Below are positions 16,901-36,600 of a DNA stretch of 64,000 nt, piece by piece (within the stretch, counting starts at the first letter, position 1; each line of letters starts with the position of its first letter). A program made the position numbers and the translations under genes. The notes below the pieces were generated by a model that was given only the letters and a program-made list of their open reading frames with translations, was not told the origin of the DNA and ran no database searches. This DNA comes from Crossaster papposus (taxonomy: Eukaryota; Echinodermata; Asteroidea; Velatida; Solasteridae), in assembly GCA_037893245.1 (NCBI GenBank), contig JBAIAA010000313.1, forward strand, positions 1,114,001 through 1,178,000. Direction: 5' to 3'.

Positions 16901-19900
16901 CGCCATAGGATTTGTACACGGGAAAAGATCGTGGACGTTTTGTCAATCGTGGACCCATTGTTTGACTCCCAATTCTTTTGTCCGACGACCACGATTGCCG
17001 GTCAATACAAACGCACACATACACACAGGAGTTAGGGTTTTAATAAGGGAATAAATGTGTGTTTGAGAGGTTTTAATCACTCTGTTTAATACCACTTGGA
17101 GTCTGGGTGCTGATAATTACCCGAGCCGAAGGCGAGGGTAATTATCAGCACCCAGAATCCAAGCGGTATTAAACAGAGTGATTAATACCGACCGAACACA
17201 TATTTATTCCTATTCATAAATATTGTCGCAAGTAAATTTCGGTGTTTCGCCATTCTGTGCGTGTCAAATTACATGTTTCCGCCTCTGTCGCTCTACACAA
17301 TACATACAATAAAGCGTATTTACTATGAACCAGACTATTACTGCCATTGGCAACCTCGTTCCCAGGGTGTCGAGCTGTACGCGACCAACACTACCCACTC
17401 TTACTATTAGAGACGAGGTACGTTGGAAATAAAGTGAGCCCTGGGGACGGGTATAATGCATAATCGCTTTGGTTTTGTTGCCAGCTGGTTTTAAACACTT
17501 CCAGCCATGTCTTTATTGTCTGTTTAATACCGGCCACGTGACGGGCTCTCGACCAATAGGAATGTCTAAACTGTCCCAGGTATTTATGAATAATAGGTAA
17601 AAAGAACGTGCCGTTGCTTTTCTTCCGAGTGGATGATTTTGGCATAAATGCTGGCAAAAACTTTCATGGTGCTGGGTCCCTTAATTTTATTATACATATT
17701 TCACACACCCTAGGGAGTTAGGGTTCCCATTGTTCTATTTTTAATCTGCTGACAAAAATGATTTTGATAATGAAGCTCAGTAAATTGCAAAATGCTTAAT
17801 TCCCTGAATAGTCACTGACATTTCTGTTTATGCTTAAAGGTCCCTCCAAATTGTGCGCTCTCTCTCTCTCTCTCTCTCTCTCAGAGTCGCAGATCAGCCC
17901 TCCATTCTTGTCGTCTGCGGACCGCACCTGCAGGGTGCCCAGGGTATCAACTGTGCCCGGCATCTTGCCAATCACAACGCGGACGTCACGCTCTTCATGC
18001 CCAACTTTGCCAAAATGCCCGAGGTAGTAACGGGAGAACTAAGGCTGTTTAGAGAGACGTCTGGGAAACACGTAACCAACATCAAAGGTAAGACTGTGAT
18101 TCCTCCGCAAGACTGGTGTATTCAGCTGTCTAAACCATGTGGACAAACTACCACTTCTGAGACAATAAGAGCTAGTCTTATTGAACAATGCCAGAATTGT
18201 ATATCCTGCTGTGGTAGGTGACCGCAGACTCTGAGGCTGTTTTGGGCCTTGAGTATTTTGAACTGATGGTTCTTGCCGCACTGGGCAGGTTGCGTGTATG
18301 TTGCTGCATGCGTTAAGATAGTTTTGGGGTGCTAAGTGGTCTTGTGGCAGACTAAAAGGCTGAAAGGGCGTGGGCCCCCTTGCCTCATTGTGAGGACTGA
18401 CCAATTCAAAATAGGCTCCTAAGATGCACAAAATAAGCATTGGTCTTAACAAAGACGTAATTTGTGGGTATCATGTTCCCAAAATGCCTGTAGTAGCACA
18501 GCCTAAACTGAAATATCTGTTTCATCAGGATTTCAAGTATTCCTACTTTTTACCTCCTTTTTTTCTGGAAATTACTACTATTTCTTCCATTTGATCCCAC
18601 AATAAAAAATTCATTGAATATTGTTCATAACAGTGTTACTCACTGTCATGTGTAAATCACACAATGAAGGGCTGATACATGCAGGAGTACTGCAATTGTA
18701 CTTCTGAGAGCTTAGTTGAGCTGAAGCACAAGTGTCATAAGTACAGAACATGAGGCTCATGCTGTGGGCATGGGCGAGTATCAACAAAAACTACTCTGAT
18801 AAAAGCCTTCAAAAGTCCTACATTTATCCTAATTTTGTCATCAAGTGTCCTTCTAAAACAAAATTGGCCCTACTATTCTCCTTACTCTTTCACCTGGTTC
18901 TGCTTGAATGCCATTTTTTTTCCAAAGACGACTGTTTTTTTATATTGCACGTAGTGTATTCGTTTTACAAAGTGCGCTCGCCCACCGCTAACGCCCCGAT
19001 TATAGGGAGCTGGACCAGTTAGGGAGCTGAACCTAGTTAGGGAGCTGAACCTAGTTAGGGAGCTGAACCTAGTTAGGGAGCTGGACTAGTTAGGGAGCTG
19101 AACCTAGTTAGGGAGCTGAACCTAGTTAGGGAGCTGAGGCTAGGTGGGGAGCTGGGCTAGTTAGGGAGCTGGGCTAGTTAGGGAGCTGGGCTAGTTAGGG
19201 AGCTGGGCTAGTTAGGGAGCTGGACTAGTTAGGGAGCTGGACTAGTTAGGGAGCTGGACTAGTTAGGGAGCTGGACTAGTTAGGGAGCTGGACTAGTTAG
19301 GGAGCTGAACCTAGTTAGGGAGCTGAACCTAGTTAGGGAGCTGAACCTAGTTAGGGAGCTGAACCTAGTTAGGGAGCTGAACCTAGTTAGGGAGCTGAAC
19401 CTAGTTAGGGAGCTGAACCTAGTTAGGGAGCTGAACCTAGTTAGGGAGCTGAACCTAGTTAGGGAGCTGAACCTAGTTAGGGAGCTGGACTAGTTAGGGA
19501 GCTGGACTAGTTAGGGAGCTGGACTAGTTAGGGAGCTGGACTAGTTAGGGAGCTGGACTAGTTAGGGAGCTGGACTAGTTAGGGAGCTGGACTAGTTAGG
19601 GAGCTGGACTAGTTAGGGAGCTGGACTAGTTAGGGAGCTGGACTAGTTAGGGAGCTGGACTAGTTAGGGAGCTGGACTAGTTAGGGAGCTGGACTAGTTA
19701 GGGAGCTGGACTAGTTAGGGAGCTGGACTAGTTAGGGAGCTGGACTAGTTAGGGAGCTGGACTAGTTAGGGAGCTGGACTAGTTAGGGAGCTGGACTAGT
19801 TAGGGAGCTGGACTAGTTAGGGAGCTGGACTAGTTAGGGAGCTGGACTAGTTAGGGAGCTGGACTAGTTAGGGAGCTGGACTAGTTAGGGAGCTGGACTA

Positions 19901-21563
19901 GTTAGGGAGCTGGACTAGTTAGGGAGCTGGACTAGTTAGGGAGCTGGACTAGTTAGGGAGCTGGACTAGTTAGGGAGCTGGACTAGTTAGGGAGCTGGAC
20001 TAGTTAGGGAGCTGGACTAGTTAGGGAGCTGGACTAGTTAGGGAGCTGGACTAGTTAGGGAGCTGGACTAGTTAGGGAGCTGGACTAGTTAGGGAGCTGG
20101 ACTAGTTAGGGAGCTGGACTAGTTAGGGAGCTGGACTAGTTAGGGAGCTGGACTAGTTAGGGAGCTGGACTAGTTAGGGAGCTGGACTAGTTAGGGAGCT
20201 GGACTAGTTAGGGAGCTGGACTAGTTAGGGAGCTGGACTAGTTAGGGAGCTGGACTAGTTAGGGAGCTGGACTAGTTAGGGAGCTGGACTAGTTAGGGAG
20301 CTGGACTAGTTAGGGAGCTGGACTAGTTAGGGAGCTGGACTAGTTAGGGAGCTGGACTAGTTAGGGAGCTGGACTAGTTAGGGAGCTGGACTAGTTAGGG
20401 AGCTGGACTAGTTAGGGAGCTGGACTAGTTAGGGAGCTGGACTAGTTAGGGAGCTGGACTAGTTAGGGAGCTGGACTAGTTAGGGAGCTGGACTAGTTAG
20501 GGAGCTGGACTAGTTAGGGAGCTGGACTAGTTAGGGAGCTGGACTAGTTAGGGAGCTGGACTAGTTAGGGAGCTGGACTAGTTAGGGAGCTGGACTAGTT
20601 AGGGAGCTGGACTAGTTAGGGAGCTGGACTAGTTAGGGAGCTGGACTAGTTAGGGAGCTGGACTAATTGTGTGTTAGCGATCACACTGTATAAAAAGAAT
20701 GTGCGACGTGTAAATTTAAATGTGACCCGCTCCAGGAAAAGGTGACATAAGTCGCGCTATGCATTTATGAGTAATTGCCCGTTAAAGTTAATAGGGTAAA
20801 TATTTTTGTCAAAATTTGATTTTCATTTTTTGTCTTAAATGACATCTGTAATATCCAAAGTTTCAGATTTAATTAACAAAAAGCTGGAATTCGATAAATA
20901 CAGTGAAACAAAACCTTTTAAGTGCATGGTTCCAATGTATTGTCTTGGATTTGTTGTGTTTCGAAGCCTGTTTTCTCAGTTGTGTATTTTGAATTCCATG
21001 GAACCATTAATATGCAAAGACGTCATATCATCGGAACGGGAGGGGCTATGGAGCTGTACTATGTACCAAATAAAAGCTTATATCCTAGACTTTGTAATCA
21101 TGTACCACTACCAAACTCTATTTTTAGTTTTCGCAACTTATGTCACCTTTTCCTGGAGCGGGTCACAATTAGTCGTCTTTGGCAAAGACTACTTGAATGC
21201 TGTTTTCTCAATTTTCTTCTTGTATTCACCGCAGACTTGTCGGAGGAACCCCCAGATTTGATCATCAGCGCTTTGGATGCCCCAAGTGATGCCTCCCTGT
21301 CCAAGCAACCCTGGCTCAAGAGTATCGTCACCTGGGTCACTGCCAACAAGGCCCCAGTACTCTCAATCGATCCCAGTCCCAACCACAGCGTCCGGAGCAA
21401 ATGGTCCGTCGTAACAGTCCTCCCGCTGTCCTACGACAACACCAATGCCGGATTACTGCATCTCTGCGACGTGGGCATTCCTCACAAGGTTTTCAGCTCC
21501 GCCGGCGTTAAGTACACGCCGCCGTTTAAGAACAAGTTTGTTGTGCGGCTTCATAATCGTTAA
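10943..21563 (+). CDS. EDC3: Enhancer of mRNA-decapping protein 3 (EDC3), six exons
   Basis: Exons 10943-11109, 11562-11989, 13756-14091, 14888-15041, 17885-18087 and 21235-21563 join in phase (2,1,1,2,1) into 1617 nt, encoding 538 residues; human EDC3 is about 508. EDC3 is a P-body scaffold that binds the decapping enzyme DCP2 and the helicase DDX6 and dimerises through its C-terminal domain. Residues 1-70 form the LSm domain (DCGDALGTFQGEVIDV, then LKRPYRNGIKL). Exon 2 encodes a hydrophilic, low-complexity linker. Exon 3 holds the FDF motif (TDFDFDKSM, FDF at 246-248) and KAAIFEEI. Exons 4-6 encode the YjeF-N Rossmann-like domain (SILVVCGPHLQGAQGINCAR, VLSIDPSPNH, LCDVGIPHKVF). The start was chosen because this ATG reads in frame into the LSm domain at the usual distance from the N-terminus. 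Introns are heavily loaded with MITEs and a large minisatellite. Similarity is strong along the whole length. Confidence 0.95.
11125..11364. mobile_element. MITE family A, copy 5, in EDC3 intron 1
   Basis: Diverged copy with CAAGTTCGCGTCGG at the left and GTGCAAACTGG at the right, flanked on both sides by TTGA. The paired TTGA supports a 4-bp target duplication. It begins only 15 bp after the intron 1 donor at 11110. Confidence 0.7.
13571..13677. mobile_element. Short inverted-repeat element in EDC3 intron 2
   Basis: TAATAACAGTGCGAGGACC is repeated in inverse as GGTCCTCGCACTGTTATTA over a 107-bp span. The centre contains CTCGCCTTCGGCTCG, a word also present in the loops of the palindromes at 15373 and 17043. 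Confidence 0.6.
14092..14887. other. EDC3 intron 3, poly-A/poly-T rich, nothing assigned
   Basis: Holds A and T homopolymer tracts around 14430-14540 and the polypyrimidine tract leading to the acceptor TTTTTCCCAG. No repeat family or extra exon was recognised. Confidence 0.5.
15073..16044. mobile_element. TGTGACCC-ended MITE in EDC3 intron 4, split by a palindromic element
   Basis: Left end TGTGACCCACCACCCC then AAAACCAGGC; the right end carries the inverted GCCTGGTTTTGG and GTGGGTCACA. The element at 15373-15928 sits between them. The left interior (AGCTTTAAAATGATACATCA) resembles the element at 21589. Confidence 0.7.
15373..15928. mobile_element. Palindrome-bearing element F, copy 1
   Basis: Begins with a near-perfect palindrome of about 165 bp: GGGAATAAATGTGTGTT, AATCACTCTGTTTAATACCG and GTGCTGATAATTACCC mirrored around GAGCCGAAGGCGA. 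It is followed by a body ending CCAGGTATTTATGAATA, which is the inverse of TTCATAAATACC at 15539. Non-coding. Confidence 0.75.
16104..16456. mobile_element. MITE family B, copy 2, in EDC3 intron 4
   Basis: A 353-bp copy with termini AGGTAGGATACACCATTGG and ATGGTAGATCCTACCT inside TTAA on both sides. Same orientation as copy 1. Confidence 0.82.
17043..17592. mobile_element. Palindrome-bearing element F, copy 2
   Basis: Closely similar second copy in the same orientation and the same EDC3 intron. It has the same palindrome with a few substitutions, an internal deletion just after the palindrome near 17220, and a short extra stretch near 17437-17458. The end is again CCAGGTATTTATGAATA. Confidence 0.75.
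17861..17884 (+). promoter_or_regulatory. TC-repeat polypyrimidine tract of EDC3 exon 5 acceptor
   Basis: An uninterrupted CT dinucleotide run leads directly into CAG and exon 5 at 17885, so the 3' splice site of this exon is built on a microsatellite that can change length. Confidence 0.7.
19004..20664. repeat. 17/18-bp minisatellite in EDC3 intron 5
   Basis: About 96 tandem copies. Most are the 17-mer AGTTAGGGAGCTGGACT; blocks near the left use the 18-mer AGTTAGGGAGCTGAACCT, and a few have CTGGGCT. From about 19481 to the end the array is nearly pure 17-mer, suggesting recent expansion. Each unit contains TTAGGG. Confidence 0.95.
20721..21167. mobile_element. TGTGACCCGCTCC-ended MITE in EDC3 intron 5
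   Basis: Termini TGTGACCCGCTCCAGGAAAA and TTTTCCTGGAGCGGGTCACA. The inverted repeat continues through GGTGACATAAGT for over 30 bp. It ends 67 bp before the acceptor of the last EDC3 exon. Confidence 0.8.
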
Positions 21564-22990: not shown

Positions 22991-23676
22991 TTAAAGGTAG
23001 GGTACACCATTGATAATTGCTTGAATTATCAGGAATGGGTGGAATTAGAGGGTTGTATTTTATAGTAAATATAATTTAACTGAACCTTCCGAAGTTTTAC
23101 AATCATAGATGCGTTGGGCAGTTGTTCTTGTAATTTTTTAATACGATCGTGATTAAAAACAAAAACAAAAACAGTTACAGGATATCTAGCGCAATCATTT
23201 TGCTGGATGCCTAGAATCATTATTTAATTTCAAATTTGTAAGATATTTCTTAATAATTCAGTAGTACAACATTTTTATATCTGCAAATGTGATGCGATCA
23301 AGCAAAATCAGTCGGAACTCGGCAATTCTTGTTTTGAGATCGGGCCAAAATATGTTCGTAGGGGTTGAAAAATCAAAATTGACTTTTTTACAAAAACAGA
23401 AGGGGAAAATATTTTTCTTTTACATGAAAATACTCTTTTAACTAAATTCAGAAGGGAAGTGATACAAAAACATGATTTTCTCAGTTTCTTTTTTTTTAAC
23501 GTGCTGGTGTTAAAATAGTTGTACTTTTTCAACCAAAGGTCGTGTTCACATGGGGTTTTCACTGAAATGGAGCCTAAAGTACGCTACAAAAGAATATGTA
23601 AAAATCCCCAAAATGACCAAAGCCTACTTCAGACTGATTTTGTTTGATCGCATCACAATGGTGTATCCTACCTTAA
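22991..23676. mobile_element. MITE family B, copy 4, interrupted by another element
   Basis: Starts TTAAAGGTAGGGTACACC and ends GGTGTATCCTACCTTAA. The family sequence breaks at 23288 and resumes at 23657, around an inserted element with its own inverted repeats. Confidence 0.82.
23289..23656. mobile_element. Nested inverted-repeat element with 3-bp AAT duplication
   Basis: A 368-bp insertion with termini GTGATGCGATCAAGCAAAAT and ATTTTGTTTGATCGCATCAC, a near-perfect inverted repeat of about 25 bp. Comparison with intact family B copies shows the empty site and an AAT duplication (23286-23288, 23657-23659). The superfamily is not certain; no coding capacity. Confidence 0.8.
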
Positions 23677-23885
23677 AGTACATGAACAAAGCCCAGGGGA
23701 GAACAATACCATGTCGCCACAGGGATGCACATCATGATTGTGCGTTTTCAATTGTTGAAGTATTCTACTGTTAAAATGCACCTTCTATTTGTCACATGGG
23801 TTTACCTTGTTATGCACATTTCACCTCTGTGTTCTTCATATCTATTTTCTTTGTACAATTTCACACTGTTCGAGATTGTTATTCG

Positions 23886-24302
23886 TAGAGTTGTATTTGA
23901 GTCCCTGCCAACCACCACAAGTCCTTCAGTCTCTAGCTTTTCAAATGAACTGGGGCCAATTTCACAAAACTGCTAAGCACAAAAAATTGCTTAGCACGAA
24001 AAAGTCTTGCTCAGTAAACGCAGGTTACCAGCCAAAATTCCATGTGCTTTTCATGCTAAGCAAAAACCTGCTGATTGGTTACCAGTCACAAACAATATAC
24101 ATCACCTGAAAATTTGGTTCGTAAACCCTGTTTTTGCCAACGAAGAATTTTCATGCTAAGCAAATTTGTGTGCTTAGCAGCTACATGAAATTGGCCCCTG
24201 TTAATAAAAACACTCCTTTGTCATTGTTCAACCAGTTACTTGCAACTGGCTTTATGAAAGAACTTGTAAAATAATGACTGGCAGGGACTCAATGCATTTC
24301 TG
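23886..24302. mobile_element. hAT-like non-autonomous transposon, copy 2, with nested insert
   Basis: Starts TAGAGTTGTATTTGAGTCC and ends, read on the other strand, CAGAAATGCATTGAGTCC. An exact 8-bp duplication GTTATTCG flanks it (23878-23885, 24303-24310). The body (ACTCCTTTGTCATTGTTCA, GGCAGGGACTC) matches copy 1 at 79. Confidence 0.8.
23953..24197. mobile_element. GGGCCAATTTCA-ended Harbinger-like MITE nested in the hAT-like element
   Basis: A 245-bp element with termini GGGCCAATTTCA and TGAAATTGGCCC, flanked by CTG on both sides (23950-23952, 24198-24200). The sister hAT-like copies supply the empty site. A 3-bp CWG duplication is characteristic of some animal Harbinger elements, so this superfamily is the best guess. 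Confidence 0.75.
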
Positions 24303-24734
24303 GTTATTCGATGGGTTGTATTCATGTTATATAATTCAATCTAAATTTTTACATTCTTATAAATGTTCAAACTTACTACAAAGAGGTTTTTGTAGTGTTT
24401 ATCGTTGATGTGGAACAAAAAAAGTTTCAATGGTATGATTCAGAGAATGTCTCACATTAGAAATATTTTATTTGCTTAAACTTTTTCCTGAGCTTTATAT
24501 ATACCTCCAAATGCATGAAGACAAATGGCAACAGTTTTGTTCCTACCAAAACAGCATACATTAGATGTTGGCACACAGTAAAATAAACAACCGTTTGGTA
24601 TGAAAACAAAGAATATTGATATTTAAAACAAAAAGCAATTTGCTATCGGTGTTAAACTGAGAAACAAAACAAAATATAATCCTGGGTTTTTGTAATCACA
24701 ATAACCATAGTATAAAGGGTGGCCCCAATTAAAC

Positions 24735-25490
24735 ATGGACAAGTATACCTCGACCGACAAGCTTTACTTCCACTACACTGAGGCTAAAACTACCACTACC
24801 AATTGATGGCAAATCTTTCTAGAATTGTACCAAGATATCTATTTTGGGGCCAGTAGTTTTAGCTCCAGATACTATTTTGTGAAACGTAGAGGTCTTTTCG
24901 CACCGAGAAATAACTAAACCACTTCATGTTAAAGGGATCGTATACGTTTGGTAATTGGAACCCATTGTTTGTTTCAATCCTATATAGTTATAGATATTTA
25001 CCATAAAACTAACCTGTAACAATTTAATTTCAAAAGGTGGTAGCGATTTTGAGATATTGCCTAAAATCTGGAGCGGTTATGTCCACGCAGAAAAAAAGTA
25101 TCTGCTTCGGAATACACAGTCTTAGAAATTAAACGCACTGCAGTAACTATTCTCAGATTCATTTTTTTGAGGATAAAAAGTGATATATTTTTCCATAACC
25201 GCAGTACTTCGAAGTGAACAGTTTCTAAAAATGCATTATATTATTCAAAGCTGCTGTACTTCTTACCAAGTAAGTTTTTATTGCCAATAATTGTTTGGAG
25301 TAATTACCAAACGTATACGATCCCTTTAAGTTTGCAGTGCGAAAAAAACCTCAGACAGATTTAATTGCATCACAAAATAGGGTCTTGGGCAAAAACTACT
25401 GATCAAAATCGAGATAACAAAATCTAAATACACGTATTCTTCATTCATTGTTAGTTTTGGCCTCGGGTAGTGGAAATATTCTTGTCCGGT
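24735..25490. mobile_element. Foldback repeat family D, copy 1, split by a family C MITE
   Basis: Left arm TTCCACTACACTGAGGC, TTTTAGCTCCAGATACTATT, then GTCTTTTCGCACCGAG. The right arm carries the inverted counterparts (AGTGCGAAAAAAACCTC, CAAAATAGGGTCTTGGGC, CCTCGGGTAGTGGAA). The loop is occupied by the family C element. Confidence 0.65.
24929..25329. mobile_element. MITE family C, copy 2, with TTAA duplication
   Basis: A 401-bp inverted copy of the element at 5563. It begins TTAA-AGGGATCGTATACG and ends CGTATACGATCCCT-TTAA, so the TTAA target duplication is exact. It interrupts the foldback repeat spanning 24735-25490. Confidence 0.85.
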
Positions 25491-25688
25491 ATTTATTTTA
25501 GAACCAACCCGTAAAATATAATGTAAACACAATTCAATGCTACTTTGTGTGCTTAAGTTCTGTGTAAGTTCACCTTTGCCAAATAAAAAAAAATGGTTCA
25601 CTATTTGTCAACATTAAAAAATCGTGACCGTTTTATTTCGGAAATCTACATCTTACATTGCAGGTACCTTATTGGCTAGCTTGTGACT

Positions 25689-26232
25689 TTAAAGGTAGGA
25701 TACACAATTGCTTGAATTATCAGAAATGGGTGGATTTTAGGGTTTGTACTATATAGTAAATATCGTTTGTATAAACTGACCTGTCCGAAGTTTTACAATC
25801 ATTGATGTCATGAAAAAAGCCAAAAAAAAAAAACGGCATTCGTTTTTGACCGGCGTCGAAAAGTTCTTGCTTATTTTGGGATTGGCGTCGGTCTATAGTG
25901 AATTTTGTTGCAGGATATCTAGCGCAATCATTTTGCTGGATTTCTAGAAGCATTATTTACTCTCCAATCGGTAGTAAAGGTTGTCAATATCTGCAAATAG
26001 TGAATCTGAATTATATAGTTGGCAAAGCATCCTTCCGGAAACATCACATCAACTTTTTTGGTTCGGTAGCTAGGCAAAGCGTGTGGAGTTTCAACTTTTA
26101 TCAAAAAAACCTGTTTTCACGGATTCTATAGTTCTGGTACGAAGCTGCTTTAATTTCTGTTTGTTGCCTTTGAACGGACGATTACTAGGGGTCATGTATG
26201 CTTTAGAGGAAATGAAGTATCCTACGTTTAAA
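25689..26232. mobile_element. MITE family B, copy 5, degraded
   Basis: Starts TTAAAGGTAGGATACAC and follows the family to about 26012. A terminal-like GTATCCTACGTTTAA occurs at about 26218-26232 after roughly 200 bp of unrelated sequence, so the copy is either interrupted or rearranged. Confidence 0.6.
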
Positions 26233-26404
26233 GCCATCCGCGCGTTGTAATGACTTTTGTCATCTTCTCATCTACCATGTGAGTACAGTCCTCTTATGAA
26301 GCTGAATGCTCCTGACAATTGTCGTGCTGTGGGTGCAAAGGTGCAAAGGTGCTGGTACGGCTACACGGCTATTTACATAATACATGTTCACACTTTTCTG
26401 GTCT

Positions 26405-26646
26405 CCTACCAGTTTGCGCCGGGATTATTTTAACATCACCGAGCCGAGGGGCGGGATTATTTTTAACGAAACTCGATTCGAAGCGGGTTCATGCCGATAG
26501 TGCCGGGAAGCACACCCACGCATTTCCGGCCTTTCACGCTGCTGACAGACATTTCCGAACTTAAACTTGGCGTGTTTATGCGTCATCCGTTTTGAATTTG
26601 GGAAAAATTATGCGTTTATATACGTCATTCGGCGCGAACTGGTTAA
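26405..26646. mobile_element. MITE family A, copy 6
   Basis: Left end CCAGTTTGCGCCGGG, right end GGCGCGAACTGGTTAA, with an interior like copies 3 and 4. The left flank reads CCTA, so the target duplication has decayed. It is downstream of the esterase gene. Confidence 0.8.
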
Positions 26647-27388
26647 TTAAAGTCAAATCGTACATAATTATATGTGTTTTGTCTTCAGATTAGATCAAAT
26701 AATCAAACAGGAAAGTGGCAGAAAATGTTGGGTACCTTTGGTTAATTGGGTATATATCTCTGGACTGACAAAACCAAATCAGATGAAATATAAATCATCT
26801 AAAAGCCTTTTTTCCTTAGTGTGTAGCTTTTTGAAAGCAATTTTCATAACGTTATGATTAAAAAGATGGGTTTAGATTTAGGAACACGTTGTACGTCATC
26901 AGTTGTGCATTTATGTACAATGTATATCCTAAAAAGAACTAAAAAGTAAAAACAAAGTTAATTGAACCTTTATGAATTAATATTTGACCAAACGCCTAAC
27001 ATCGCTAAACTAGAGCACTATTACGCATGGTATTATAATCACTTCGTTATCAAAAGAAGGGATACATATACGGGATTAGATTATTGTAAACTATTTATCT
27101 AAATTATTGTAAGGATACACTTTACACGTCGATTGAGTTACACTTCATTAATACATTGTGTTACATTGCAATAATCTAACTATAAGGATTAGTATTTTCC
27201 ATAAGATCAGTAAACTCTCTTGTCAACAAGTTTACAAAATGGTTTGGCGTGCTCTCAAATCGGCTCGGCAGAAAACATATTCAATAATTGTTCACTAATT
27301 CCATTGATTTTTCTGATGTTTGCTTTCATTTGTACTTGTATACGTCGGCTGGTTTTCAGCTAACAAGTTTTGAAACCAATCATAGCAT
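26647..27388. other. AT-rich region downstream of the esterase stop
   Basis: Presumed 3' UTR and flank of the minus-strand esterase gene. No clear AATAAA signal was identified and no other feature stands out. Confidence 0.35.
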
Positions 27389-30300
27389 CTATTCGCTTTT
27401 AAAGCTTGAAATTTCAATGTTCTCGTTGTACTGGTCTTGGTCTTTGGGATTTTCATAAATAGCCTCCGAATCGGCCTCTATCATCACAATATCGTTCACC
27501 AAACCATACGGCTTCTCCCCCACTGTATATTTATTACCAACGGTCATCGCGATCCCACCATCCCCAAATTTACCGGACTCGGCTTTGATAGCTCGAGCCC
27601 TGTATGCCGCGCACCCACCTAAGAAAAAGACCACCACGACAAGAAGGCCAATGGTCACCCCTATCAGTGCTTCGATGAGAGTGGCAGCATCCTCCAAGGA
27701 GAGATTTAAACCGATATTCCCCCCAACAATGCAAGGCTTAGACACAGTGGGTCCAGGAGGAGTAATAATTGTTGGGGGAACTGTGACGGACGGTATCAAG
27801 TCGGACCAGAAGCGTAGCGTGTGGTCCCAATCGTAGTCGAGGCCCAAGCGGGCGTCAGGGCAGGTGTCCAGGGCCATGAAGCGGAAGTTGTCCGAGTCGA
27901 AGGTGGGCCATCCGGAGAGAGACGTTTCAGGATGCCTATTCAAAAAGGAAAACAATTATACTATTCTTTGGTACTGGAGAAATCACCTCGAAACTCTTTG
28001 TTTGTACTTGTCTACAAAATAATTACACGTTACAAAAAGCAGAGTTTTATCCGAGTCCCTACAATCAAGTCCTTTCGATTTCACAAATCCGGTCACAAGT
28101 GCAGTAACTGATTGAATGACACAGGAATGCTTTGAACAGTTCATTTGAATAGCTAGTGACTCTACTTGAGACTGACGGACTGACAGGGAGAAACCTCTGA
28201 CAAATAGCGTTGTCTATATCGACTGTTTAGCTTGTACTCCTGTCCAATTGAGCATGTCACCACTGATATTGAGTTTGCATTATTTTGATAATTGTTTTTA
28301 GCTGGGAGAAATGAATTGTCTTACCCATCGTGAACAAAGCTCATCAGGGATGCCATGATTTCAAGACTCATCTTATTATCTTGAAGCCGGTAGGGAAGAT
28401 GAAGTTCATCCGCGAGGTGGCTGTAAGGATTTCCAAACAGGAACTGCAAATCATCAGCGTTGGAAGGTCCGGCCAATGTAGGTAAGAAGCTGTTGTAGTG
28501 CTGAAGTGGCTCGTGGTCGAATGAGTAGACATAGACAGAGTTCCCGTTGTCAGAGTAAAGTCGTGCTGTCTCCAAGGTGCTCCAAACCGACAGGTAATCC
28601 TGCATGAATTGTCTGAAACTCCCCCGTGACTGACAGGTGTCATCAAGTCCTCCTTTACCCAGATACTCGGTAGCGAGCGCGACAGAGGCTACCTCTGGAT
28701 TGTGAAATGAAAGCCGGCTGACCTCTTGTATGAGTAGCTTGATTTCATCGGTCGTTGGGCAGTAGGTTAAATTGCTGGGTAGGAGATGGAACGACTGTCC
28801 GGCATTCTCATCCCAAGTCATTCCCACGATGAGGTCTACGTTGTTGAATTTACCGGCTTTAAGGAGATTTATTGGCGAATCTTTCAGAATGTCTTGGTCC
28901 ACCACAACTGGAAACGCACGGCCAAACTTGGGGTTCTGGGTTTGGAGTACAAAATCTGAGGCTGGCTTTTCGCGGAGACATTTTATCATGAGATCACTGT
29001 TGGTTATGGGACAGTCCAAGGCCTTAGCCAGAGCTTGAGCCTTTTCTGAGGCATTGGGTTGGACCTGGTTGTCAACTGGAGGGGAGATGGCTGTAGAACT
29101 CATCAGCACAGCTTGCTGGAAAAGATCCTTTGCCTTCTCCGAGAGCACCAGAAAGTGGGCAAGCTCAGCCCCTGCTCCGTAACCGACGATTGTTACACGC
29201 CTTGCGTCCCCACCAAAGCTGCTAATGTACTTGTTAACCCATGTGAGAGCGGCCAGAACGTCATGTAGTCCGTAATTACCAGGAGCTTTATCATCCCCGG
29301 TGGTCAGAAACCCAAGAGCCCCTAGACGGTAATTGGGGACCACCACAACTGCCTCCAGCTCGGAGGCAAGCAGAATTGCGTCATAGATTGACGACGTGCC
29401 TGAAAGTCCAGAACCAGGATGGATGAAAACTACGACTGGTAGTCCGTCACCTGTTGTTGGCGCGTGGATGTTCAGAGTCAAGCAGTCTTCGCTGGTTTGG
29501 TTGAACCCAAGGCGAACCATCCAAGGATCTTTGGTGACATCCTGTGGGCAGGCAGGTGGTAGCATTTCTGGTATCCCGAGCGGTTCATCTCCCCACGATC
29601 CCACATCTTTAGGCGGTCTAAATCGCAAATCACCAAGGGGTGGCTTTGCATAAGGAATTCCCAAGAACTCGGCAATCTCCTCCCCTCCCATCGCCTTGTC
29701 AGCAACTCTCAAAGAGCCAACCACAGACCCTAAGAGGTAACCTTCTCCACTTCGGATCTCCACCGTCTTAGTGTCAGACTTGTCCACAGTACCACTTCCT
29801 AGCGGTACACGGATAGAGCATTGAGTGTTAGGGTCAGCAGGCACGGCAACTGAAGGGATATAGTCGTTCCACAGGGCCAATGTCTCTGCCTTAAGATGCT
29901 GTCCTGTTGTGATGTTTGGCTCCAAGATGATGTAAGTCTCATTTTCAGGTTCGTATTTTGGCCATTCAGGAAGGCCATCTCCATTAGGGTCACTGAACAA
30001 ATTTAAAAGTATAATAATAAAAGTAAGGGTCGTGCAAGAATTAGATTTACAATCATGTACCAATTACTTTCTGTAAACAAGGAAACAAAACCAAGCCGTT
30101 AATTGTATGACTAATAAGGTTCATGTATTGGAGAAATATACGTGTTTTCTATTATTATGTACTTTTCGTTTCCACGTTTGCATGCGCTGTTGAAATAATC
30201 ATTGAAAGAGACAAAATGGCTGTGTACATGAAACAAACATATAAAGAGAGACATACACGCATGATGCATGACATGGTTCGGGCAAGAAACACAAACGAGG

Positions 30301-32718
30301 GATGCAGAAGTTGGATGGGGTACATAACCAATCGTGAATATTTTCACGACGTCGTGAACTTGTTTACGACTAGTCGTTAACAAATTTACGACGTCGCAAA
30401 CAATATTTCCGACGTCGCGAAAAATATTCACAACCGGTTATGTCTCTTCAGGGCCAACATATACAAATCAGCTCAGTTTTCATGCAATTTCAGGGTACGT
30501 GCCAGTACACACCTGGATATCGTGGATACCTATATAAATATTATATATAGAATTGAACTCAGATTTTAATTAGAGGATACATCTCTATAGAAGAAACTAT
30601 ATACATGTATATACGATACCAAGATATCTCGATTCGGTTTTAGCTCCAGACTCTATTTTGTAAAGCGAAGTCAGAGGTCCAAGTTTCGCATCGAGAACAA
30701 AACGTGACATTTAAAATTCGCGGGCTCGGTTGAGTTTTTTCTCGGTGCGAAAGGCCAGACCTCTGATTGTGCTTCACAAAGTAGGGTCTGGAGCTAAAAG
30801 CACTAGCACAAATCGAGACATCATTTTTCTTCCAGAAAGATTGTCAATCCATGGTAAAGGTAGTTTTGGCCTCAGGGTAGGGGAAGTATGTTTATCCGTT
30901 TTTTGTGTGTGGGCCACTCTATATTGACGATGTACTGTACGTATTATCTCTACTCAAATCAGCCAAACAATAACCGGTGGCTATAGTTTGGGACAATTAC
31001 TCTAATATAATGGTTATGTTTATTACGCTCGGTTCAGACAGGCGTTCTACAGTCGTGCCGAACCAAATTGAAATCAAGTCGCTCCTGAGTCGATCTAACA
31101 ACTCCAGCAGTCGATCGTTCGCCGTCTGGCGCGCCTTGTCGCCCTTATTCGTTTCAGACGTCGGACTCAATTCACTCATTTGGTTCGGCACGACTGTGGA
31201 ACGCCTGTCTGAACCGAGCGTAACTCACCCAGTCTTAGCAAAGTTTGTCCAGAAGCCCACCATCGATTCACTGAGTGAAGCAGACACACTTTCTGGTTGA
31301 GTCTGCACATACTGCCCGAAAACAAACGGGATCTCGAAACCGTGTCCAGCTCCGTCTACCAGGTCCGGTGGAAAAGGGTTGGTTCCAACCTCTGAGAGGT
31401 ATGTGAAGTAATACATGTAGACATTGGCGGAGTTGTTGTATTTGTAAGACAGACGGGAATGGTCACGGACGGTCACGACAGCAGGTGCTAAAAAGATGGA
31501 ATCACCAGCAACTTTGAGCATCACACGTGTGTTTCGCCTCAGATCTTCGAGATCCGAGCCGGCTGTGTAAAGAAACTTGGCAGTCTCCGCCAGCTCCTGG
31601 TAGTTGCTACACTGATAAATAGACTTGATTGTTTCACCCATGAAAAAAGACATGGCGAGTGAGTCAATGAAGAGAGGGATGATTCCAAAGGCGATGCTCC
31701 CTTCGTCGCTGTTAATCCCAACGATGAAGTCATACTGACTAGCAAGTCCTAAAGCGGATAGGCGATGGGGGTAATCCGGTAAGAAATCACCGTCAACTAT
31801 TGGATAATAAGGTGACAGCTGAACAATCTCAACTGGTAATTGACTTCCAGCTGCCAAAATGTCGTCTACCGATGCATCACGCAGGCAATCTATCAGTTGC
31901 CCCGAGTCGGCGAGCTCCTCACACTGCAGAAGACTGCCCAGTAGTCTGGTCCGCACTGCCACTTCCTGTTGTGAATTTGTGAACTCCTGGTGAGCTGTTC
32001 CACTTTCGAGGATCACTCTTTGAAACAGACTTCTGTCATTGAGAGGAGAAATCGCCTGCATGGCAGCGCTTATGGCTCCAGCAGACTCACCGAAGATTGT
32101 TATCATCTCAGGATCACCGTCAAAATTGGCGATATTTTCCTTGACCCACTGGATGGCCAGGCGTTGATCCCAGAGCCCGTAGTTCCCCTTTGCCGTGTCA
32201 TCACCTGTGCTCAGAAATCCCAGAACGCCAAGACGGTAGTTGATAGTCACCACGACAACACGGCCGAGAACAGCTAAGATGGACCCATCGTACTCGTAGT
32301 AAGACGAAGACCCTACAATAAAACCACCACCGTGAATCCAAACCATGACTGGGAGTAGACCCTCTGATGAGACATTGGCCTCGGGAACGAAGATATTTAG
32401 AGTCAGGCAGTCTTCGCTCGACGGTATTGGCGTTGGCTGCGGGCAAATGGGCCCATATTCCGTCGCGTTCAGCACGCCCTGCCACGGGTCTTTGGGTTGA
32501 GGTTTGGCAAAACGCAATGATCCTTCAGGCGGCTCGGCATAAGGTATTCCTTTATATGTCGTTACACTCTCGTTTAGAACAAGTTGACTCGTGCCAATCA
32601 GAGATCCTGAGGTGGTGTTAATGATTCTCGACCAACTCATTGCCTGACAAGAGCCTAGCCCGAAAGAGAACAAACACAAGATCACTAAAACGAAGGCAAA
32701 ACATACTCGAGCCTCCAT
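27389..32718 (-). CDS. Transmembrane protein with tandem carboxylesterase domains (first active-type, second pseudo-esterase)
   Basis: Three exons, 32718-31229, 29992-28325 and 27935-27389, join in phase 2 at both borders into 3705 nt (1234 residues). A signal peptide (about 1-26) precedes a type-B carboxylesterase domain with oxyanion HGGG (129-132), nucleophile GESAG (Ser212), Glu339 in INSDEG, and His459 in GAGHGFEIPFVFG. Exon 2 finishes that domain and a linker ending YIPSVAVP, then encodes a second esterase domain (about 570-1053). There the nucleophile elbow reads GYGAG (Gly769 for Ser), the oxyanion motif reads HPGS, and Asn1008 replaces His; Glu892 remains. Exon 3 repeats the linker (LIPSVTVP), adds a membrane span (about 1138-1162, IGVTIGLLVVVVFFLGG) and a 70-residue tail with an IYENP motif. 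It is predicted to be a type I surface protein related to cholinesterases and neuroligin-type proteins; substrate and partners are unknown. The architecture is read directly from the sequence; function is inferred. Confidence 0.88.
28040..28199. mobile_element. hAT-like non-autonomous transposon, copy 3, in esterase intron 2
   Basis: A 160-bp copy, starting CAGAGTTTTATCCGAGTCC, with the other end CAGAGGTTTCTCCCTGTCAG on the opposite strand. The flanks ACAAAAAG and ACAAATAG match at 7 of 8 positions. Internally it contains the family words in reverse orientation. Confidence 0.7.
30323..30442. repeat. Imperfect 120-bp palindrome in esterase intron 1
   Basis: CATAACC, ATCGTGAATATTTTCACGAC and ACGACGTCGT words at the left are mirrored at the right (GACGTCGCGAAAAATATTCAC, GGTTATG). 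It is probably a degenerate foldback element, and is AT-rich with repeated ACGACGTCG. Confidence 0.6.
30600..30900. mobile_element. Foldback repeat family D, copy 2, in esterase intron 1
   Basis: TTTTAGCTCCAGACTCTATT and TCAGAGGTCC at the left pair with CCAGACCTCTGA and AGGGTCTGGAGCTAAAA at the right. The centre has TTTCTCGGTGCGAAAGG. Limits are approximate. It lies within the 1236-nt first intron of the esterase gene. Confidence 0.6.
31023..31223. mobile_element. Inverted-repeat MITE abutting the esterase exon 1 donor
   Basis: Termini TTACGCTCGGTTCAGACAGG and CCTGTCTGAACCGAGCGTAA. The inverted repeat extends through GTCGTGCCGAACCAAATTGA to nearly 50 bp per arm. TA flanks both CGCTCGG ends, compatible with a TA target. 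Its outer end lies immediately beside the splice donor of exon 1. Confidence 0.85.
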
Positions 32719-32785
32719 GATGGCTGTCCGTTCATTGACGTTTAATTTGCTAGGTTTATGGGAGGGCTATAGACATCATATATAG

Positions 32786-32793
32786 CTTATATA
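32786..32793 (-). promoter_or_regulatory. TATA box candidate of the esterase gene
   Basis: The minus strand reads TATATAAG here, matching the TATAWAAG consensus, and lies 68 bp upstream of the ATG at 32718. A start site about 30 bp downstream would give a 5' leader near 40 nt. No CpG-rich promoter is seen around it. An upstream noncoding exon cannot be excluded. Confidence 0.45.
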
Positions 32794-33158
32794 CCGGTAC
32801 CCGATCTTTACCTTCTGCAAATATTGCCACCCATAGAGCTACAATAAATGAATGACCAAAGTCCTTTCTTATGTCAACTTTTAAGTTTACATCGAATATT
32901 ATCACTGAATTGGAATTTATACCTACTTGGTGGTCACTGGGATATACATATAAAAAAAATAACGGAATAAACAAAGGGTGTGCTGTCTAAACAGCAAAAG
33001 AGCCCCTAACCTATTAGCTTTGAGTGCAAATAGCTGTGGTGTATCTGCAACGTATTTACATGTGATCAGTGTGGGCTGCAATACTGAATGTACATTGTAC
33101 ATTTCTTAATGGCCAATCACAGATCACCGACTGTTGGTTTGCATCATAGCCTGAAAAA

Positions 33159-33546
33159 GCCATTTGCGCGTCACCCCGAGTTAAATTTGAATAATATCTG
33201 GTACACTGACTTGCTCACACAGCTTGGCACAGTTTAACTTTAAATTCTCAAGACCAAAGACGCTGTTGCTATATCACGTGATTCGGGGCAAGCCTTACGC
33301 GTCATACGCTAGCAACCCCCGGCTCTGGAATGGTCTGGTGTCTTTTTGCCATTCTCACCCATTGTAAACAATGTATTGGTGCTGAGCGTCTCTTACGTAA
33401 CTATGCAAAAGCTTGCCCCGAATCACGTGATATAGCAACAGTCTCTTTGGTCTGGAGAATTTAAAGTTAAACTGTGCCAAGCTGTGTGAACAAGTCAGTG
33501 TACCAGATATTATTTTAATTTAACTCGGGGTCACGCGCAAATGGCT
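33159..33546. mobile_element. Long-armed foldback element upstream of the esterase gene
   Basis: Two arms of roughly 135 bp (33159-33296 and 33412-33546) are inverted copies, sharing GCCATTTGCGCGT, ACTCGGG/CCCGAGT, GCTTGGCACAGTTTAACTTT and TATCACGTGATTCGGGGCAAG. A loop of about 115 bp lies between. Confidence 0.8.
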
Positions 33547-33963
33547 TATTATCGCATTTCAGAATGTCCAATCAGCAAATGCAATCAAAGACCAATCAGA
33601 TCCCATGGTTCGAAAGCAGCGCATCTTTAATATAACAACAAAAACTGGAAGTATTGCTAGTGTTCATGACTTCATGCGTTTTGCGCGTACGTAAGACGGT
33701 CATCAAGCTCTTGACCAATGACAAGCTCTGCTTTGCAGGCTCCACCCCAAGCGTCACTCCCTTCGACTATACTGTCCACGTCCTTAATTAGAATTCCACA
33801 ATGAGCCCTGTCTGCGATTGTTCGTTTTATTTCACTCCGTTGATTTGCAACGAAGGTCGTGAAGAGGACAATGCAACGCTATACTTCACGGCTCGGATGT
33901 TATAGGACTCTTTATGGCGATAGTGCAGGCCCGTACGCAGGGGGTGCGACGAGTGCCTACGCA

Positions 33964-33983
33964 CCCCCCCCCCCCCCCCCCCC
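33964..33983. repeat. 20-bp poly-C tract
   Basis: A pure C run after GCCTACGCA, followed by A-rich sequence. The preceding GGCCCGTACGCAGGGGGTGC looks like the terminus of a dispersed repeat; the rest of that repeat was not delimited. Confidence 0.8.
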
Positions 33984-35203
33984 AAAAAAAATCAAAAAAA
34001 ATAACCAAAGTTTTTGAGGCAAATAATGGTATTTTGATGTAGAAATAACGGTACCGTACCACAAAAAAATAAATGACATTGGGATTCATAATACTTCTCG
34101 TAGGTTAGACCCATACCGTGTATACAATCGGCGGCTTCAAGAGTGTTCTTGGTGAACACCAGTCTGTTGAGTTACTCCCTTTTATATAAAAGTTTTACAT
34201 TTCTAAAGACGAGTTGTATTTTCAGAAGACATCGTCCCACGTACGCCAAGTGATTATTATTTACATAGCCGACATATCATTTGAAAAGAATCACAATCCT
34301 TTAGGTACGTCTTTTAGTCAGCCAGGCGGATAAAAGCACCATATTTGACATGAAGATCCCTTAGGGCCTAGTAATTAATGTTAGCCCACCATAAGGTTTT
34401 AATCATGGTAACTGTGCCAGTATACAACTTGGTGAATTTGAAGCTTATCAATACTGAGGTTTGGCAAGACTACTTGATGATATCTGGAGCCAAGGTAAAT
34501 GCGCGCAATCTAAGGGTATGATTTCGACTGTGACTATGTCCTCATGATTATTCAGTCACTTAAATGCTTTACAAAATGTTATTGCAGTAAGGAACTGTAA
34601 GTAAAATCACCAAAATAAACTTTGAAAAAAATATACATATATATTATATATATATCCAAATATGGGAACAAATTATAGTATACGACAGGTATTAAAGATT
34701 TTTGCAAGTTAGGCATATTTCTACAGAAAATCCAGCTTGGTAACCATCATTTTCGGATTCAGCACCCCAAAATAGCTATGTTACAAACTCTACTAAAAAA
34801 AATGCCTCTTTTTGCCCTAAATGAGCCCCGTTTTTAAAATATCGCCTAGACTATAATAGTTCTTATTGCCGGACAACCATTATTAAAGTAATAGAAGGAA
34901 GTGTGTTGTTAATCTCCATTGTTGCAAATCCACAAGTAAAAAAGAAATTAAACAATCGGCTACCGAACTCGTTGTGAAATTCTATAGACATCGACTGTCG
35001 GATGGGACATTGATGTAAAACAGCTCGTGTTGATCTTTTTATCCAGTTTAAAGATTTTTTAATAAATAAATAAATGAATAAATAAACAATAAATAATTAT
35101 GAAATGACAAACATTGTAATTCAAATTAGACAAAAATAATTGAAATTGGTTCCAAAGTTACATCATTAATGCTAGCTCTACAGTCTTCGGACTATTAATA
35201 TCG
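33984..35203. other. AT-rich intergenic stretch, nothing assigned
   Basis: Contains short AT microsatellites near 34630-34655 and 35060-35100. No exon, RNA gene or repeat family could be supported. Confidence 0.45.
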
Positions 35204-35287
35204 TATGGTGGCCCTGGAGGGACACCGCGGATCGTGAATATTGCCGTCAATATTCACGACATGCGTGTCTCTCCAGGGCCACCATAT
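35204..35287. repeat. 84-bp near-perfect hairpin
   Basis: ATGGTGGCCCTGGAGGGACAC is mirrored by GTGTCTCTCCAGGGCCACCAT, and the inner TCGTGAATATTG pairs with CAATATTCACGA across a 4-nt loop. It shares the TCGTGAATATT motif with the palindrome at 30323. Confidence 0.75.
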
Positions 35288-35619
35288 CGACGCGACAAGC
35301 CGAGATTGGTCAGAGTTTTGTGTTGTGTCAGAGCATAGAGCATGCAAGGAACAAATTTTCTGTGCCAGGAGTTATTCACTCCTAATATCATTTAATCATT
35401 CTTTTATTGGGGTTTTTGTTTATTAAAAATTCCTGTAAAGTTGTAATATTTATCTAGATTTTATTTGTTTGTATGTTACCATTCGAGTAAGGATTGACAG
35501 GCTTTCGAGTCACAGTGTTTAATTATACTTTTGTCGATCCTGGCCAGCTTTAATTGGGTTGTTTTTGTTTAGTTAAATCTGTTTGTTTCGTGGATTGCTT
35601 GTTGTATCCCACTGGGCAT

Positions 35620-36600
35620 TTTACCCGATATTACCCGGGTTGTAACGAGTAATAACGCTAGTTATTACTGGGTAACATACCGATATTACCTTGGCTGTAA
35701 CAAGTAAAAATGAGTAATAACGCGTAGTTATTACTGGGTAATAACGGGGAAATAGTAGACAAATATTTCCCTGTTATATATTTACCCCATTTTACCCAAT
35801 ATTACCCAATATTACCAGGTAGAATGTTACCGATATTTCCGGCATTGCATTGTTATTACCACCCGATATTACCCTATTTACCCAATATTACCAGTGAGAA
35901 TGTAACCGTGAGAATGTAACCGTTATTTCCGACAATGCATTGTTATTACCACCGAATATTTTCCCCTTTACCCAATATTACCAGAGAATGTTACCGTTAT
36001 TTCTGGCATTGCATTGTTATTACCAGCCGATATTACCCTGTTTACCCAATAATTATTGGTTAATTGGTTAATTATATGGGTTAATACTACATGTAATATT
36101 ACGATACTACGGAACAATACTACAATACTACAATGTATACACATAAAAATCCACTCTTCTGAGCTTGCCACTCCTATATTCTTAGTGTGTACTTAAATGC
36201 TATATATGTGCCCAATATCACCGCCGTCAGTAATCACAGTTTGCAATTATTTTTTTTGTTAATTTATTTGTGTGTTGGCTTTTTGGCAAATTTGTTTCTT
36301 TGAGACTTGGAGTAAATAAATATTACACAATTATCTCTACGAAAACACCCTAAACGTGTCGCTATTACGCAAAACATAACGTTTATGTAGAAAAAGTAAC
36401 AAAAATGTTTCACCAAGGTTTATCACGCCCACTTGGGGTCAACATGTAAATTGAGGTCACCCGATATTACCCTATTTACCCAGTATTACCATGGAGAATG
36501 TAACTGATATTCCTGGCATTTCCGTGTTATTACCACCTAATATTGACCTTACCAAATATTACCAAGGAGAATGTAACCGATAATTCTGGCATTTCATAAA
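35620..36600. repeat. Degenerate ATTACC-rich tandem repeats
   Basis: A region dominated by ATTACCC, GGTAATA and CCCAATATTACCAG words. An approximately 75-90-bp unit (GGCATTGCATTGTTATTACC followed by GATATTACCCTATTTACCC) recurs near 35830-36060 and again near 36460-36590. Divergence between units is high. Confidence 0.6.

Follow-up and report, generated by a model that had tools for sequence, protein, structure and literature searches.

Many pseudoenzymes are products of genes separate from those of their active relatives. The locus at positions 27,389 to 32,718 of the window (the whole 64,000-nucleotide stretch of Crossaster papposus DNA that was analysed) raises the question of whether an active-type and a dead-type esterase domain can be joined in one polypeptide, and of what the second could do for the first. 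We refer to the two domains as D1 and D2.

Gene model

The preliminary description had proposed a gene of three exons that together give an open frame of 1234 codons, and this was confirmed. The exons lie on the minus strand (32718-31229, 29992-28325 and 27935-27389), are separated by GT-AG introns and yield, when spliced, 1234 codons followed by a stop. The stop-to-stop frames comprise 513 codons for exon 1 and 580 codons for exon 2. The features are as follows.

31229..32718, minus strand: exon 1; hydrophobic leader at the N-terminus (residues ~1-25), then the bulk of D1 (31-497)
29993..31228, minus strand: intron 1; 1236 nt, GTGAGT...CAG, splitting a Gly codon between its second and third bases
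28325..29992, minus strand: exon 2; D1 C-terminus, linker and most of D2
29761..29847, minus strand: interdomain linker, residues ~546-574; includes Cys555, a Cys in representatives of all four family groups (see below)
27936..28324, minus strand: intron 2; 389 nt, GTAAGA...TAG, placed and phased in D2 as intron 1 is in D1
27389..27935, minus strand: exon 3; D2 C-terminus, stalk, predicted membrane span, presumed cytoplasmic tail and stop
27608..27685, minus strand: predicted membrane span, residues ~1137-1162, from hydropathy
27392..27607, minus strand: presumed cytoplasmic tail (residues 1163-1234), with little conservation from one group to another

Intron 1 splits D1 at the position, and in the phase, at which intron 2 splits D2. 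Exon 1 ends short of an esterase's C-terminus, and the missing part is supplied by exon 2, whose residues 1-54 give a match of their own, ahead of the D2 match, to the C-terminus of the carboxylesterase 5fv4 (E 1.3e-5); against 9grb and two neuroligin chains, the same residues gave matches too weak to count (E 1.3 and above). Exon 2 opens with the C-terminus that D1 lacks, and we therefore treat the two exons as one gene. The BLASTP alignment between D1 and D2 runs through the start of exon 3, and exon 3 thus completes D2.

The gene model is a prediction from the DNA sequence, and retention of intron 1 would lead at once to a TGA stop; both points agree with the alternative that the first reading wrongly fused two adjacent genes. 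We consider this very improbable, because the D1 C-terminus is missing from exon 1 and present in exon 2, and because the same join was obtained in all 14 family models spliced by a script (which admitted only GG|GT donors, AG acceptors and this phase).

Domains and active-site residues

The Pfam profile COesterase (PF00135) matched residues 31-496 of exon 1 (437.3 bits, 1.3e-130) and residues 88-554 of exon 2 (383.5 bits, 2.5e-114), both above the curated cut-off of 27, and the two matches covered profile positions 3-471 and 10-470 of 515, respectively. The residues originally assigned to the two active sites were all found in place: Ser212 (in GESAG), Glu339 and His459 in D1, and Gly769 (in GYGAG), Asn1008 and the altered oxyanion motif HPGS (688-691) in D2, which also retains an acid, Glu892.

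32083..32085, minus strand: Ser212, D1 nucleophile (GESAG)
31702..31704, minus strand: Glu339, D1 acid
31342..31344, minus strand: His459 of D1
29416..29418, minus strand: Pro689, in place of the oxyanion Gly of D2 (HPGS for HGGG)
29176..29178, minus strand: Gly769, in place of the nucleophile Ser of D2
28807..28809, minus strand: Glu892, acid kept in D2
28459..28461, minus strand: Asn1008, in place of the catalytic His of D2

As a yardstick we used prokaryotic homologues, keeping the best 80 of 586, of which 79 gave a D1-matching frame of at least 350 aa (L045 did not). Among these 79, the Ser column holds Ser in 74, and the His column and the oxyanion position hold His and Gly in all 79. The homologues define 71 columns that are at least 90% conserved; D1 keeps 69 of these and D2 keeps 60. 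The 11 losses of D2 include Ser to Gly769, His to Asn1008 and the oxyanion Gly to Pro689, and Glu892 stays. Judged by sequence, the comparison marks D1 as an active-type esterase domain and D2 as a dead-type one. Five of the 79 prokaryotic esterases have Gly (3) or Asp (2) at the Ser column, and apparently dead esterases may thus occur among these homologues as well, if the alignment is right.

Two Cys pairs occupy matching places in the two domains (92/104 and 266/278 in D1, 645/667 and 824/835 in D2) and are Cys in representatives of the four family groups. The full set of positions that are Cys in all four representatives comprises 92, 104, 266, 278, 370 and 555 in D1 and the linker, and 645, 667, 824, 835, 908, 950 and 1078 in D2. 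The linker might be tethered to D1 through the cysteines 370 and 555.

In the window protein, the two strongest hydropathy peaks lie at the N-terminus and at residues ~1137-1162. Of the membrane anchor in the preliminary description, the hydrophobic C-terminal span stood, both by hydropathy and, judged by eye, as a hydrophobic stretch at the same position in 12 of 12 intact family copies; the topology is predicted from sequence only. The presumed tail (27392-27607) carries the motif YENP, which we take to resemble an SH2-binding motif, in four of the five intact copies from the window and contig C84; C84e has YQNP, and the motif is absent from the seven copies elsewhere.

Predicted structure

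The two exons were folded singly, with 60 of the 79 prokaryotic homologues and both window exons as the input set. AlphaFold2 returned pLDDT 87.5 and pTM 0.90 for exon 1, and pLDDT 79.3 and pTM 0.83 for exon 2, in which 268 of 555 residues reached 90 or more. The detached D1 C-terminus and the linker were poorly placed in the exon 2 model, where residues about 400-460 also had a pLDDT of only about 60-80. The best PDB matches in Foldseek were butyrylcholinesterase (BChE) for D1, and neuroligin 4 and CES1 for D2.

A family of tandem esterase genes

Counted exon by exon, the genome (G000; 1,023,315,904 bases) holds at least 87 COesterase matches. For the family analysis, 20 stretches (200 kb) of contigs C84, C209 and C1213 were fetched. 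In these regions and the window, all 17 D2-type exons are preceded by a D1-type exon on the same strand, the farthest pair (C1213e) being 10.6 kb apart. Seventeen models were examined and 14 of them were given to the splicing script, which sought the above donors and acceptors in the window gene's phase at the expected places. Splice sites were found in 14 of 14, with the intron 1 site at the window gene's place each time; since the script was restricted to that phase, the shared phase was searched for and not found blind, and the sites were printed for inspection. Start codons were set provisionally to the first ATG of the open frame.

Of the 14 spliced models, 12 are open as far as the tail; C84c is interrupted by a stop in exon 1, and C84a does not reach the span. 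The remaining three models (C84f, C209b and C1213e) contain stops or frame breaks. Some D1-type fragments lack a D2 partner (among them C1213:211218, C1213:191952 and C209:1042905), and a stray exon-3 piece lies at C84:129250. Elsewhere in the genome, twelve dispersed esterase fragments with nearly equal scores (contigs C304, C198, C61, C937, C271, C636 and C232) cover profile positions of about 280-475 in a frame of mostly 233 aa, and may stem from a piece that is mobile or was duplicated.

Four diverged groups can be distinguished among the 12 intact copies (window and C84; C209; C1213a/b; C1213c/d/f), with between-group identities of 45-61% in D1 and 46-72% in D2. All 12 D1 domains have the full triad; Ser and His are invariant, and the acid is Glu in eight copies and Asp in four. 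In D2, both Ser and His are missing from all 12: the Ser position is occupied by Gly in 10 copies and by Asn in the two from C209, and the His position by Asn in five, Leu in five and Ile in two. The D2 acid is present in 10 of the 12 and replaced by Gln in two, and the oxyanion Gly position holds Pro in eight copies, His in two and still Gly in two. These counts come from one assembly and represent four groups rather than 12 independent cases, and the dead state of D2 may trace to a single ancestor.

The window is 94-97% identical to C84 over positions 23070-34675 and 35057-36134, a match that takes in the flanks. The window gene and C84g might therefore be two alleles, or the product of a segmental copy, and the number of copies given here may be too high; more generally, close copies are perhaps alleles or homogenised by gene conversion. 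Across the diverged paralogues, the D1-D2 pairing, the places of the splice sites and the split of the triad all recur, and the earlier claim of one chain with an active-type and a dead-type domain is thereby upheld.

Selection on the two domains

In five independent recent pairs, pN/pS was 0.41 for D1 and 0.32 for D2 (binomial p versus neutral 9e-7 and 4e-10, respectively). The two values do not differ significantly (Fisher p 0.32, or 0.10 with a sixth, non-independent pair); among 15 close pairs, themselves non-independent, 12 gave the lower pN/pS for D2. Between groups, D2 was more conserved than D1 in five of six comparisons, clearly so in three (63 v 45, 63 v 47 and 72 v 61%), and the comparisons with C1213a were nearly equal (48 v 46, 48 v 46 and 46 v 47%). 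Both domains are under purifying selection, and D2 is therefore not decaying.

A degenerate, functionless D2 in decay might be suspected from its end branch (2.14), the longest in the tree that has the window gene as sole family member. We regard decay as extremely unlikely, since the D2 stem is long but its later branches are short, since its pN/pS is as low as given above, and since D2 has 187 invariant columns in seven copies, versus 161 in D1.

Origin of the tandem

Trees were built from 15 of the 79 prokaryotic homologues with the window gene, and, in a larger set of 36 rows, from 8 of the 79 with 7 of the 12 intact family members. In the 36-row tree, D1 forms one clade (100/98) and D2 another (100/100), which would fit a single origin of the tandem before the split into four groups. 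The closest neighbours of D1 are C1213-cluster esterases that apparently have a single domain (84/86). The vertebrate cholinesterases form a clade (100/100) with four other genes of this genome, and D1 falls outside it; in the smaller set, a grouping of D1 with cholinesterases was not rejected (AU p 0.115).

The approximately-unbiased values for D1 and D2 as one clade were p 0.06 in the small set and 0.134 in the larger, and for D1 and D2 together with the C1213 single-domain esterases p 0.04 (larger set). In the larger tree D2 and the neuroligins lie on one side of a branch, which lacks support (53/44), and their grouping was not rejected in the small set (AU p 0.35). When the D2 data were forced into the D1 branching order, the constraint was not rejected (AU p 0.21); the D1 data did reject the D2 order (AU p 0.014), so shared inheritance of both domains is consistent with the data but not proven.

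Over 544 alignment columns D1 and D2 share 31% identity, and their mutual score (184 bits) is lower than that of D1 with BChE (277 bits); a recent duplication within the gene was ruled out on these grounds. An old duplication and a fusion would both be compatible with the trees. Three scans found no relatives in viral contigs.

Comparison with known esterase-like proteins

With the type-B carboxylesterase/cholinesterase family (PF00135), the protein shares the profile in both domains, the triad and oxyanion motif in D1, and the two Cys pairs at matching places in D1 and D2; it differs in having two domains in tandem within a single chain, of which the second lacks Ser and His. Acetyl- and butyrylcholinesterase are the best PDB sequence matches of D1 (277.5 bits), and two cholinesterase-like genes of the same genome (L083 and L084) carry a splice donor at the equivalent position, followed downstream by sequence that matches the D1 C-terminus. 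The Cys-loop Trp of cholinesterases binds choline. In the window D1, the Cys loop is about 15 residues shorter than in BChE and lacks the stretch that holds this Trp; some other groups have longer loops, but no Trp occurs in the D1 loop of any of the 14 spliced copies. D1 is therefore not a typical cholinesterase.

Neurotactin, gliotactin and glutactin have a single esterase domain and are not known to carry it in tandem with one that has a complete triad. These insect proteins are described in passages of PMC5943944 as non-catalytic cholinesterase-like adhesion proteins. Neuroligins, according to the same passages, carry a catalytically dead esterase ectodomain on a membrane span (PMC5943944). 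They share with D2 the dead state and the Gly at the Ser position (Gly769), but have one esterase domain versus two here and keep the His for which D2 has Asn, Leu or Ile; the Pro or His that replaces the oxyanion Gly in 10 of 12 D2 copies is also unlike neuroligins. The cholinesterase and neuroligin labels of the preliminary description thus hold by fold only, since the D1 Cys loop lacks the Trp and D2 lacks the neuroligin His.

Thyroglobulin offers a further dead domain: passages of PMC5943944 describe its ChEL domain, which has no working triad, as an intramolecular chaperone and dimeriser in a larger protein, and titles cited in PMC3464141 use the same terms. The remainder of thyroglobulin consists of Tg1-Tg3 repeats (PMC3464141), so the partner of the dead domain is different from the active-type esterase found here. 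Among the matches listed in a search of the open-access literature (title and start of abstract), no description of a tandem active and dead esterase was found, and predicted proteins of the same build may well exist in eukaryote databases.

Proposed function

At the level of sequence, the locus presents both domains in one gene, a split triad, a hydrophobic anchor and purifying selection on both domains. The architecture is real, conserved and unusual: live and dead copies of one fold are locked in a single chain, and all four diverged gene groups retain this split. That the pairing of living and dead domains is kept in related genes points to a lasting division of labour between D1 and D2.

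We think that the product, a member of a multigene family of this genome, is probably a type I membrane protein in which an ectoesterase is carried by a conserved pseudoesterase. The N-terminal leader and the one C-terminal span predicted from hydropathy would be compatible with the type I topology. D1, as a type-B carboxylesterase domain whose triad is complete, would hydrolyse an ester outside the cell. D2 would serve as a structural and binding module between D1 and the membrane, holding D1 away from the membrane and most likely pairing either with D1 or with another protein that acts as its partner. Because the tail is variable between groups, any signalling would be group-specific.

A neuroligin-type adhesion or recognition receptor, in which D2 binds a partner on another cell and the D1 triad is incidental or a side activity, would explain why D2 has the neuroligins' Gly at the Ser position, why neuroligins are among its best PDB matches in sequence and fold, and why the larger tree places both on one side of a branch, albeit without support (53/44). 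We consider such a receptor unlikely. The D1 triad in 12 of 12 intact copies, together with purifying selection, argues for catalysis by D1, and D2 also lacks the His that neuroligins keep. Neuroligin tails end in a PDZ motif, whereas the tail here ends in FKSE, which is no PDZ motif.

Alternatively, D2 could act as an intramolecular chaperone or as a cis-dimer partner for D1 folding and ER exit, as in thyroglobulin. The esterase fold dimerises through a four-helix bundle (passages of PMC5943944), the thyroglobulin domain is called both chaperone and dimeriser in the portions of PMC5943944 and PMC3464141 cited above, and the C-terminal helix region aligns between D1 and D2 in the four groups. 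An interface between D1 and D2 is hypothetical, however, and the C1213 cluster contains apparently single-domain esterases with no D2-type exon found beside them. In the canonical dimer, moreover, the C-termini point the same way (PMC5943944), so the linker, about 31 residues long, would need to double back in order to reach the start of D2. On balance, a chaperone or cis-dimer role as the explanation for D2 appears quite doubtful.

The favoured reading, an ectoesterase on a pseudoesterase, can be extended to a more speculative proposal, which we advance with little confidence: echinoderm membrane receptors might use a fixed enzyme-pseudoenzyme tandem, in which D2 gates or senses for D1 in cis, and the faster-changing D1 and the variable tail give each cluster its own substrate and signal. 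The system is open to testing what a pseudoesterase does for an esterase, as scaffold, dimer and binding roles are separable in one protein.

Other features of the window and the genome

The neighbouring open frames (20922-21560 and 11365-12036) had no Pfam match at 0.01, and the window had no Rfam match. In the NCBIfam search, every match lay far below the curated cut-offs. A long array of tandem repeats, about 1751 bp per period, occupies positions 37000-64000, composition being nearly constant from 38 kb on. Two minisatellites were also found, one of 17 bp at 19003-20665 (97 copies, 98% matches) and one of 12 bp at 6346-6889 (45 copies).

Mitochondrial code 9 is that of echinoderms and flatworms. 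The mitochondrial COX1 on contig C1841 contains 13 in-frame TGA codons in its profile match and scored higher against solved COX1 with code 9 (924.6 bits) than with code 5 (889.8 bits), which in our judgement points to an echinoderm. Eight AAA sites were aligned between the COX1 sequences of C1841 and C8, with 2 Asn and 2 Lys. Besides the mitochondrial C1841, stop-free COX1 matches occur on the long contig C8, at C8:5208663 (L109) and C8:2872001-2873343, and C8 is perhaps a bacterial contig within the assembly.
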